A DNA stretch of 64,000 bases from positions 62,001 through 126,000 of the forward strand of contig JAMLGK010000008.1 of NCBI GenBank assembly GCA_023957995.1. The letters are read 5' to 3'. Under the pieces are notes generated by a model. That model worked only from the letters and a program-made list of their open reading frames with translations. It had not been told where the DNA came from and ran no database searches. The translations under genes were made by a program, and so were the position numbers. Positions 10,351-12,577 of the stretch are shown in pieces (within the stretch, counting starts at the first letter, position 1; every line of letters starts with the position of its first letter). The stretch is from Microthrixaceae bacterium. GTDB lineage: Bacteria; Actinomycetota; Acidimicrobiia; Acidimicrobiales; Microtrichaceae.

Positions 10351-11334
10351 TCAGCTGAGGTTGTTGCCGTCGAAGATCTGCGAGACCGAGGTGTCCTCGA
10401 ACACCGCGTCGATGGCATCCGCGATGATTCCGGCGGCCGACAGCACCTCGACCTTGTCGAACTGCTTGTCGGCCGGGAGGGGCAGGGTGTTGGTGATGAC
10501 TACGCGATCGAGCCGCGAGTTCTTGAGACGATCCACCGCCGGCCCCGAGAACACACCGTGGGTGGCCGCGCAACAGACCGAGCTCGCACCGTGGTCGATC
10601 AGCTGTTCCGCTGCTGCGACGATCGTGCCCGCCGTGTCGATCATGTCGTCGATCAGCACACAGGGCCGTCCGGCTACGTCGCCCACCACGTCCTTGGCCT
10701 CGACGGTGTTCTTCGCACCCTTGACGTGACGCTTGTGGACGATCGCCAGGTCGGCGCCCAGCTGGTTGGCATAGCGCTCCGCAACCTTCACGCGACCTGC
10801 GTCCGGCGACACCACGACCAGGTCGTCACCGAGGTTGCGCGCCATCCAGTCCACCAGGACGGGCATGGCTGTGAGGTGGTCCACCGGACCGTCGAAGAAG
10901 CCCTGGATCTGCCCGGAGTGCAGGTCCACCGAGATGATGCGCTTGGCCCCGGCGGTCTCGAACATGTCGGCGACGAGTTTCGCGGTGATCGGCTCACGCC
11001 CCTCGGCCTTGCGGTCCTGGCGGCCGTATCCGTAGAACGGCGCCACCACGCTGATGCGCTTCGCACTCGCACGTTTGGCAGCATCCACCATGATCAGCTG
11101 CTCCATGATCGAGTCGTTGACCGACAGCGATCCGGTGGTGCAGTGACTACCGATGATGAACACGTCCGCGCCGCGGATGGAATCGCCGAAACGGCAGTGC
11201 AGCTCCCCGTTCGCGAACTCCGATATCTCCACCGGATCCAGAGGTGTGCCGAGCGATTCGGCGACCTCCTCGGCGAGCTCGTGGTTGGCCCGCCCTGCCA
11301 CCAACACGAGTCGCTTCTTGGTCACGAGTTCCAC
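10351..11334 (-). CDS. prs: Ribose-phosphate pyrophosphokinase (PRPP synthetase)
   Basis: Makes PRPP from ribose 5-phosphate and ATP for nucleotide, His and Trp synthesis. The 327-residue length is normal. Visible motifs are ISEFANGELHCRFGDSIRG, the flexible-loop region FYGYGRQDRKAEGREPI, the pyrophosphate region VVSPDAGRVKVAE and the ribose-phosphate loop VLIDDMIDTAGTI. The GTG at 11334 is preceded by GGAGG 4 bases away. The gene follows glmU by 29 bases, an order conserved in many bacteria, and its product supplies the phosphoribosyltransferase Upp encoded at 32 kb. Confidence 0.96.
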   Translation of the reverse strand: MELVTKKRLVLVAGRANHELAEEVAESLGTPLDPVEISEFANGELHCRFGDSIRGADVFIIGSHCTTGSLSVNDSIMEQLIMVDAAKRASAKRISVVAPFYGYGRQDRKAEGREPITAKLVADMFETAGAKRIISVDLHSGQIQGFFDGPVDHLTAMPVLVDWMARNLGDDLVVVSPDAGRVKVAERYANQLGADLAIVHKRHVKGAKNTVEAKDVVGDVAGRPCVLIDDMIDTAGTIVAAAEQLIDHGASSVCCAATHGVFSGPAVDRLKNSRLDRVVITNTLPLPADKQFDKVEVLSAAGIIADAIDAVFEDTSVSQIFDGNNLS

Positions 11335-11363
11335 AGCGCCTCCGATTCCCCAGTCGGTCCCGG

Positions 11364-12503
11364 TCAGGACCGTTGGACATCCGCAGGTGGAGTGTAGAAC
11401 GCACCTGTGGTGGTGTCAGATGCGATCTTCGTGCCTGCGGGGATGTTCGCGAACGGCCCCACGGTGCACCGGTCGCCGATGTCCGCGCCGGTGGCCACCG
11501 CATGGGTGAGCACACAGTCGTCCCCGACGGAGGTGTCGACCAGTCGACAGCCCGGACCGACCTCGGTGCCGTCACCGACGGTGGTCGATCCCTGGAGTAT
11601 CACCCCGGGGAACAGCGAGACATCCCGTCCCAACTTCACCGTCGTGTCGACGTAGGTGACCGAGGGGTCCACCATCGTGACCCCATCGGCGAGGAGTGCC
11701 TTGTTGGTCCGCTGGCGGAGCTCTGCCTCGGCAGCTGCGAGTTGACCCCGATCGTTCACACCCTGGGTCTCCGTCTCGGGTGCGCCGTGGGCCTCGACGG
11801 TGTGACCTGCCGCCACGAGCACCGACACGACGTCGGTCAGGTAGTACTCGCCCTGGGAGTTGTCGGGCTGCACCCTCCGGAGCGCAGGGGCGAGGAGCGA
11901 ACGCCTGAAGCAGTAGATGCTCGTGTTCACCTCGTCGATCGAGCGCTGTTCGGGGCTGGCATCGCGCTCCTCCACCACGGCCTCGACACCGCCCGACCCA
12001 GATCGGATGACCCGGCCGTATCCCGTTGGATCCTCGACCACCGAGGTGAGCACAGTGGCCGCAGCTCCGGTTCGACGGTGGTGTTGCACCAGCGCCTCGA
12101 CGGTCTCCCTGCGGAGCAACGGGGTGTCGCCCGGAAGGACCAGGACATCTCCGTCGTCATCGTCGGGAAGCCCCACGAGTCCGACCATGGTGGCGTCGCC
12201 GGTGCCGCGTTGCACCCGCTGCTCGACGAACTCGAGCGGCACACCCCAGAACTGTTCCTGCATCTTCTTGGTGACCCACTCGGCCTTGTGGCCGACGACG
12301 ATCACGGCACGTTCGACCCCACAGGTGGAAAGGGAGTCGAGCACGTAGCTGAGCATCGGCGACCCGCAGAGGCGGTGCAGCGGTTTGGGGCGCTCCGAAC
12401 GCATGCGCGAACCCTGACCCGCGGCCAGCAGCACGGCGGACAGGCCGGAGCCTTCGGTTGGGGACCCGGGGTCCGGGGAAGCCGTATGTCGAGTATCGGT
12501 CAT
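11364..12503 (-). CDS. glmU: UDP-N-acetylglucosamine pyrophosphorylase, GlmU lacking the acetyltransferase active-site end
   Basis: The first about 245 residues are a complete nucleotidyltransferase: LLAAGQGSRMRSERPKP, the GTGDA uridine loop and DEVNTSIYCF. A left-handed beta-helix follows, but the protein stops at 379 residues, whereas GlmU is normally about 450. The end comes just after GPFANIPAGTKIAS, before the segment that in E. coli carries the acetyl-transfer His, Tyr and Asn. Uridylyltransferase activity is expected; glucosamine-1-phosphate acetylation is doubtful. Only 29 bases separate its stop from prs, so no lost C-terminus lies downstream. The ATG at 12503 is one base from the tRNA-Gln 3' end. 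Confidence 0.88.
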   Translation of the reverse strand: MTDTRHTASPDPGSPTEGSGLSAVLLAAGQGSRMRSERPKPLHRLCGSPMLSYVLDSLSTCGVERAVIVVGHKAEWVTKKMQEQFWGVPLEFVEQRVQRGTGDATMVGLVGLPDDDDGDVLVLPGDTPLLRRETVEALVQHHRRTGAAATVLTSVVEDPTGYGRVIRSGSGGVEAVVEERDASPEQRSIDEVNTSIYCFRRSLLAPALRRVQPDNSQGEYYLTDVVSVLVAAGHTVEAHGAPETETQGVNDRGQLAAAEAELRQRTNKALLADGVTMVDPSVTYVDTTVKLGRDVSLFPGVILQGSTTVGDGTEVGPGCRLVDTSVGDDCVLTHAVATGADIGDRCTVGPFANIPAGTKIASDTTTGAFYTPPADVQRS

Positions 12504-12504
12504 G

Positions 12505-12577
12505 CTCTCGGGGCAGGGATCGAACCTGCAACCTCCTGATCCAAAGTCAGGCGTTCTGCCGATTGAACTACCCGAGA
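12505..12577 (-). tRNA. tRNA-Gln, anticodon TTG
   Basis: A 73-base cloverleaf on the minus strand. The acceptor strand TCTCGGG pairs with CCCGAGA, the anticodon arm is CCTGA-CTTTGGA-TCAGG with TTG at positions 34-36, and the T arm is GCAGG-TTCGATC-CCTGC. The discriminator base is G. The CCA end is not encoded. The 3' end lies one base before the glmU start codon, so the two are probably co-transcribed. Confidence 0.95.

Follow-up and report, generated by a model that had tools for sequence, protein, structure and literature searches.

The GlmU protein encoded in the analyzed stretch of DNA (64,000 nucleotides, referred to here as the window) lacks the acetyltransferase half of its beta-helix, and throughout the sampled part of the order the loss of this domain is well documented. 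Judged from its sequence, the protein appears to have kept the uridyltransferase and to be devoid of the acetyltransferase. A family of GNAT proteins, designated A1, is the leading candidate for the lost acetylation because it is present almost everywhere that the acetyltransferase site is missing. A model in which a monofunctional GlmU is complemented by A1, acting as a glucosamine-phosphate N-acetyltransferase of predicted activity, appears to us fairly probable.

A GlmU Gene That Ends within the Beta-Helix

The gene and its immediate surroundings comprise the following features:

12503..11364, minus strand: glmU, 379 amino acids plus stop, 1140 bases (open reading frame, Pfam/NCBIfam, PDB, alignment)
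11760..12446, minus strand: uridyltransferase (NTP_transf) domain, residues about 20–248 (Pfam and conservation)
11394..11717, minus strand: remaining portion of the hexapeptide beta-helix, approximately residues 263–370 (Hexapep and alignment)
10351..11334, minus strand: prs, ribose-phosphate pyrophosphokinase, the next gene after glmU (open reading frame, conserved neighborhood)
12504..12577, minus strand: tRNA-Gln, TTG anticodon (ARAGORN)

By sequence and operon, the window protein is orthologous to bifunctional GlmU (TIGR01173/PRK14352), with which it shares a conserved uridyltransferase domain. Pfam recognizes nucleotidyltransferase and hexapeptide domains, the top NCBIfam models are all GlmU, and the best PDB matches are GlmU chains, extending over query residues about 20–370. 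Unlike the bifunctional enzyme, the protein stops early. Its TIGR01173 match extends no further than approximately position 344 of the 452 in the model, with a score (350.9 bits; 349.5 in the genome search) below the curated cut-off of 366.85, and PDB coverage reaches about residue 360 of Mycobacterium tuberculosis GlmU. A relative from the same order (G043) scores 368.2 bits, just above the cut-off, though its match also ends at 344. The premature end of the beta-helix described in an earlier note on this DNA is thereby borne out, but the deficit amounts to some 105 model positions, compared with the approximately 75 residues given there.

The gene resides in its usual operon, in the order glmU–prs–rplY–pth–mfd (gene names were given by recognition rather than by family search), and a gap of 29 bases (11335–11363) separates its stop codon from prs. 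The position of prs beside glmU is kept in four genomes of the order and beside the short GlmUs of two genomes outside it (G155 and G189). On the other side, the tRNA-Gln gene predicted by ARAGORN adjoins the glmU start codon with zero bases between them; because the two genes abut in this way, they are probably co-transcribed.

The earlier note had also held that no remainder of the domain exists, with the next gene beginning so close. In agreement with this, a tblastn search of the window with the C-terminal domain of a full-length relative returned only a weak match (E 0.09), which is the retained helix itself. A TIGR01173 search of the host genome (G000, 3.54 Mb, with the window on contig C35) identified neither a second GlmU nor a separate GlmU C-terminal domain; the other 16 matches correspond to lower-scoring nucleotidyltransferases or to brief hexapeptide segments. 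The hexapeptide proteins of the genome, which by recognition are NeuD-like, LpxD-like, and FdtC/WlbB-like, gave weak partial matches only and were rejected as a relocated C-terminal domain. The LpxD-like gene (G000:C12:304564-305067; L058:5124-6161) adjoins a probable PIG-L-type deacetylase, in a region that resembles an exopolysaccharide locus.

Loss of the Acetyltransferase Site and Preservation of the Uridyltransferase Domain

Thirty-five truncated GlmU rows were aligned with 11 full-length relatives. The truncated rows represent 34 distinct sequences, the L007 protein (G002, same genus) being identical to the L289 protein (Microthrixaceae bacterium ACE_NR_ACTI2). This identity probably places the window in the genus of ACE_NR_ACTI2. 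The columns of the catalytic E and H, of a K next to them, and of a Y further on are invariant in 11/11 full-length sequences and are matched in 0/35 truncated rows. The catalytic Glu and His are E348 and H362 in the numbering of Staphylococcus aureus/Streptococcus pneumoniae GlmU (PMC11947611), to which alignment columns were assigned through the motif and an equal 14-residue spacing. The complete site, comprising E348, H362, and the Arg of the LRPG motif, is absent from the window GlmU. The LRPG Arg falls within the retained part of the protein and is replaced in 35/35 truncated rows, with a Pro at residue 355 in the window protein, while nearby columns occupied by Gly, Pro, Ala, and Leu are for the most part retained. 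The proposal that this is a GlmU without its acetyltransferase active site therefore holds.

The uridyltransferase domain presents a different picture, with 48 of the 60 positions that are invariant in the 11 full-length GlmUs retained in at least 34 of the 35 truncated rows. Its conserved stretches in the window protein include LAAG, PK, RGTGDA, GDTPL, GYGR, EERDA, EVNT, and GVND. In M. tuberculosis GlmU, whose helix has ten turns, acetyltransfer by the C-terminal domain requires the trimer and uridyltransfer is assigned to the N-terminal domain (PMC2675579). The predicted uridyltransferase-only role follows from these domain roles, from the disappearance of the acetyltransferase residues, and from the retention of most uridyltransferase positions.

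The retained helix of the window protein ends in a TG-x-FY motif. A similar ending (window positions 11364–11396) occurs in 35/35 truncated rows, with Y/F in place of the V of full-length proteins, and is missing from some further eroded members of the order; it is perhaps a helix cap. A 331-residue UDP-GlcNAc pyrophosphorylase chain in the PDB (1fwy/1fxj) is close in length to the window truncation. It is presumably an artificially truncated Escherichia coli GlmU that retains uridyltransferase activity, and in contrast to this laboratory construct, the truncation described here is natural and extends across an order.

The Truncation Extends across the Order

The order, defined from the titles of the relatives, corresponds to the Acidimicrobiales/Microthrixaceae lineage of Acidimicrobiia. 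A GlmU match at 1e-40 was obtained in 54 of 61 genomes (60 relatives and the host). C-termini were inspected in 30 of them, namely the host and 29 of the 53 other matching genomes, and all end early, in one region and typically with VGPFA-L-PG...TG-FY.

A survey of the class covered 149 genomes (at least 90% completeness requested) with the full-length TIGR01173 model at a threshold of 1e-50. Among the 55 genomes of the order, GlmU is short in 45, not found in 10, and full in none, and every one of the 45 matches ends at or before model position 362. Among the 94 genomes of other orders, the C-terminal domain is present in 86, GlmU is short in two (G155 and G189) and cut by a contig edge in one (G068), and none was found in five. 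Hence, 86 of 89 GlmU-bearing genomes outside the order possess the domain; 84 of these score over the cut-off and end at 431–452, the remaining two being a match at a contig edge (G152, 197–448) and one distributed over two contigs (G139). The GlmUs of G155 and G189 stop at model position 242 with no contig edge. Full-length glmU in close relatives, which the earlier note had named as the sign of a local mutation, was found in 0/45 GlmUs among the 55 order genomes, and 30/30 inspected C-termini end early. Local mutation is ruled out, since all 45 GlmUs of the order are short, compared with 86/89 elsewhere that have the C-terminal domain.

Erosion of the gene is graded. Many members of the order retain about 333–347 model positions, whereas in G089, G194, and Ca. 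Microthrix UBA814 (G204) only the NTP domain is left. In the 15 genomes of the class without a match, lowering the threshold to 1e-15 yielded at most approximately 73-bit matches that resemble other nucleotidyltransferases, or nothing. Ten genomes of the order have no recognizable GlmU at this threshold (G097, G112, G124, G156, G175, G180, G183, G190, G192, and G196), each at least 95% complete. They include all sampled members of families f33 (2/2) and f34 (3/3), and because every sampled member is affected there, real gene loss is favored over assembly gaps. For G097 and G190 (f7) and G156 (f22), other members of the respective family retain GlmU.

The acetyltransferase half was probably lost in an ancestor of the order. 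A single loss is likely on taxonomic grounds, and a quick GlmU tree of 62 rows does not establish it because eight full-length rows from other orders (f39, f47, f48, f58, and f59) are nested among the order rows, at weakly supported forks, so that the order GlmUs do not form one clade. The GlmUs of G089 and G204 stand apart in this tree. Those of G155 and G189 fall in a 21-row set (SH-aLRT 97), and as the other 19 rows of this set are full-length GlmUs from other orders, their loss is separate from that of the order.

A GNAT Family Accompanies the Short GlmU

The earlier note had suggested a search of the genome for another acetyltransferase, and a strong candidate emerged in GNAT family A1, of predicted activity and substrate. 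The host genome has 23 listed PF00583 matches, A1 and 22 others, which were compared by tblastn with GNAT loci from two control genomes with full GlmU and from six small genomes of the order. The loci used covered every GNAT match of five of these six, and 4 of the 14 matches of the sixth (G118). Within this coverage, no GNAT of the host genome was strongly matched throughout the six. The distribution of two families, A1 and A2, was then determined across the 149 class genomes. The host copy of A1, to which the gene of L208 (ACE_NR_ACTI2 genome) is 83% identical, lies outside the window:

G000:C22:1064-1504, minus strand: A1, own copy

A1 is present in 53 of the 55 genomes of the order (E values of 1.4e-43 or better) as opposed to 5 of 94 others. 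Within the order, it accompanies the short GlmU in 43/45 genomes and is present in 10/10 genomes without GlmU; in other orders, it is found in 2/2 genomes with short GlmU, 3/86 with full GlmU, 0/5 with none, and 0/1 for the contig-edge case. A weak match in G138 (8.8e-23) was judged to be a different GNAT and was not counted. The two short-GlmU order genomes without A1 are G154 (96% complete) and G164 (99% complete; its congener G081 has A1), and A1 alongside full-length GlmU is confined to three f54 genomes (G103, G105, and G168). The chromosome of Aquihabitans sp. G128, complete according to its title, carries truncated glmU and A1 together (L247/L292). The control family A2, with 43/55 order genomes and 73/94 others, displays no such pattern; being class-wide (116/149) and unrelated to GlmU length, it was discarded as a substitute. 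Family A2 (host copy G000:C1:261907-262425) has a conserved PGDR-x-x-K motif and adjoins a ThyX-domain gene.

Because of kinship, the raw contrast between A1 and GlmU is weaker than it appears (INDEPENDENCE). Fisher tests gave 2.8e-33, or 3.3e-28 when the six undetermined genomes are included; these values take no account of relatedness and were given no evidential weight. Only two independent contrasts lie on supported branches, and three on all branches, too few for significance (sign test, p 0.5); on average, A1 changed in the same direction in 1.9 of 2 contrasts, and never in the opposite one. The most direct comparison is within family f43, where A1 is present in 2/2 genomes with short GlmU (G155 and G189) and in 0/11 with the full domain; the fourteenth genome (G161) has neither GlmU nor A1. 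In a GNAT tree built without the fragments L268 and L276, the G155 copy groups with the f54 copies (SH-aLRT 95), and the G189 copy falls among order rows without support. In both genomes, A1 lies near an enoyl-CoA hydratase-like open reading frame, similar as judged by eye. Contamination is an unlikely source of the G189 copy given this shared neighbor, the presence of prs after glmU, and the similar GC contents of the A1 and glmU stretches (0.611 and 0.614).

At least 540 relatives of A1 exist, 80 of which were listed. For the 72 listed members that were aligned, most titles read Acidimicrobiales, Microthrixaceae, Ilumatobacteraceae, Microthrix, or unspecific actinobacteria, and a few bins are otherwise named. 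A1 is not located near glm genes, and nothing in its neighborhood points to amino sugars; its frequent neighbors are a Nudix protein (63/94 loci) and a GlnD-like open reading frame (58/94).

Fold and Active-Site Comparison of A1 with GNA1

An AF2 model of A1 (pLDDT 96.1, pTM 0.90) has a plain GNAT fold. In a VIA comparison, the 50 PDB entries listed are nearly all named acetyltransferases, with Z scores of 16.4–18.1, entries within 1 of each other counting as ties; the only one named GNA1 is that of Cryptosporidium parvum (6yug; Z 16.5, rmsd 2.1, 133 aligned residues, rank 41). Among the Foldseek matches listed, 3fb3 ranks 16 and C. parvum GNA1 ranks 37, amid similar-scoring GNATs. Neither listing singles out GNA1 by fold. 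The entry 3fb3 is an acetyltransferase of Trypanosoma brucei, which we take to be its GNA1. When the PDB was searched with a five-member A1 profile, 1z4e came first (1.1e-17) and 3fb3 second of 97 (7.7e-12), and the GNA1 4ag7 was matched at 2.3e-5; with a 72-member profile, 1z4e was again first and 3fb3 sixth of 53. PDB chains named GNA1 rank below 3fb3 in these profile searches.

Conservation was assessed in 72 of the 80 listed loci (L225, L249, L254, L262, L266, L268, L275, and L276 were left out of the alignment). E78, V80, and Y126 are present in 72/72 members and D79 in 71/72, with one X, and R116, R119, and R134 are invariant; the f54 and G155 copies are without the last Arg of the family. 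In Caenorhabditis elegans GNA1, the hydroxyls of the sugar are bound by Glu104 and Asp105 and the phosphate by Lys136 and Arg164, and a catalytic role has been proposed for Tyr149 (PMC3413214). When residues are placed by motif and spacing by way of 3fb3, rather than by aligning A1 directly to the C. elegans protein, E78/D79 and Y126 of A1 are the counterparts of Glu104/Asp105 and Tyr149, and the E-D-V motif is present. The stretch IEDVVVD is identical in A1 and 3fb3. The Lys is missing, its place being taken by T110 (65 Thr and 7 Ser among 72), and the place of Cys141 is occupied by S115 (72/72); 3fb3 likewise has Ser there.

These similarities in primary structure suggest that A1 may work like GNA1, though not necessarily as a member of the GNA1 family. 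A1 resembles the eukaryotic enzyme in its GNAT fold, E-D-V motif, conserved Tyr, and invariant Arg, and the same chemistry is proposed for it. It differs in having Thr/Ser and Ser at the Lys136 and Cys141 positions and in that 1z4e, rather than a chain named GNA1, heads both profile searches; moreover, A1 is bacterial and associated with loss of a GlmU domain. A precedent exists in Apicomplexa, where a separate GNAT lineage performs the GNA1 reaction, as established by experiment (PMC5838249). A1 would likewise be an independent GNAT lineage with this reaction, in contrast to the apicomplexan proteins, which belong to eukaryotic parasites and to another GNAT lineage.

Pathway Genes in the Host Genome

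GlmM is present in the host genome (about 480 bits). Next to glmM lies a gene for a GlmS-like protein of 1158 amino acids (G000:C23:307479-310952; L087:11480-14956). GlmS models cover approximately residues 247–834 of this protein, and its C-terminal part of about 320 residues has no Pfam match. As a fused acetyltransferase, the long GlmS-like protein was rejected on two counts: Pfam and NCBIfam detected no acetyltransferase domain in it, and similarly long proteins turn up here and there in the class, in genomes with short as well as with full GlmU, and so do not track the loss. Among the other conserved GNATs, L065 is RimI (over the cut-off), L069 is MshD (150.9 of 163.1 bits), L075 is RimJ-like, and L060 is ArsN1-like; L065 and L069 have strong matches in five of the six small order genomes.

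Discussion

Based on these data, a simple model would suggest that GlmU of the order became a monofunctional GlcNAc-1-phosphate uridyltransferase after losing the acetyltransferase half of its beta-helix, and that further erosion would have left some members with the NTP domain alone, or with no glmU at all. The N-acetyl group would be added by the A1 GNAT, from acetyl-CoA onto glucosamine 6- or 1-phosphate. Because GlmM is retained, acetylation could take place either before or after the mutase step. Eukaryotic GNA1 acetylates glucosamine 6-phosphate. The expectation in the earlier note that a separate acetyltransferase would be needed, or that the pathway differs in this lineage, gains support from the order-wide short GlmU and the A1 candidate. 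A broader reading, whose chances we see as evenly balanced, is that this hitherto unrecognized bacterial GNAT family is the Acidimicrobiales glucosamine-phosphate N-acetyltransferase, that acquiring it allowed the acetyltransferase half of GlmU to be dropped on two or more occasions within the class, and that in the ten GlmU-less genomes a further uridyltransferase completes the pathway.

Alternatively, the lost step could be carried out by another acetyltransferase, be it a GNAT, a hexapeptide protein, or a protein of unrecognized fold, and A1 would be an order-specific GNAT with a different job. The absence of A1 from G154 and G164 and its co-occurrence with full GlmU in three genomes are in line with this view, and the 22 other PF00583 matches and several hexapeptide proteins of the host genome provide possible enzymes, L060, L065, L069, and L075 among them; the class profiles cover A1 and A2. 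However, none of the host GNATs was strongly matched in all six small order genomes (4/14 loci for G118), these four GNATs have better names, A2 is class-wide, and G154, despite lacking A1, contains only two hexapeptide loci besides GlmU. We consider this explanation unlikely, though it deserves more weight than those that follow.

A further scenario is that the short GlmU uridylylates GlcN-1-P, with acetylation taking place on UDP-GlcN, or that the cells rely on salvaged GlcNAc. Retention of GlmM and the GlmS-like gene implies that GlcN-1-P should form; yet the uridyltransferase domain retains most of the positions of its bifunctional relatives, with no sign of altered specificity, and the same two genes render order-wide reliance on salvage improbable. 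Either variant seems highly unlikely. The last possibilities are that the assembly is wrong at this place, that the gene was truncated recently, or that the shortened helix still acetylates. No point in favor of them was found; the alike endings in 35/35 truncated rows (34 distinct), including that of the Aquihabitans sp. G128 chromosome (L292), together with the lack of E, K, H, and the LRPG Arg from all these rows, leave them with hardly any credibility. The model of a monofunctional GlmU complemented by A1 thus remains the one we prefer.

Among the papers listed by the literature searches, no report of GlmU truncation in Acidimicrobiia was found, which does not prove its absence from print. 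The one paper naming both Acidimicrobiales and GlmU is a lake microbiome study, and the searched terms are missing from the main text of a class-wide marker study (PMC5962788).

Bacteria of the Acidimicrobiales are common in aquatic samples and activated sludge. Similarity-based annotation would probably call their short GlmUs bifunctional, and the reconstructed cell-wall pathway of these bacteria has a gap that a short list of genes may fill. Loss of a domain is seen here beside the gain of a possible substitute, and the f54 genomes, which have both A1 and full GlmU, represent a candidate intermediate state. More generally, bacterial GlmU is usually regarded as bifunctional, as essential, and as a target for drugs; that an entire order does without one of its activities, and in places apparently without the whole gene, indicates that this step is replaceable.
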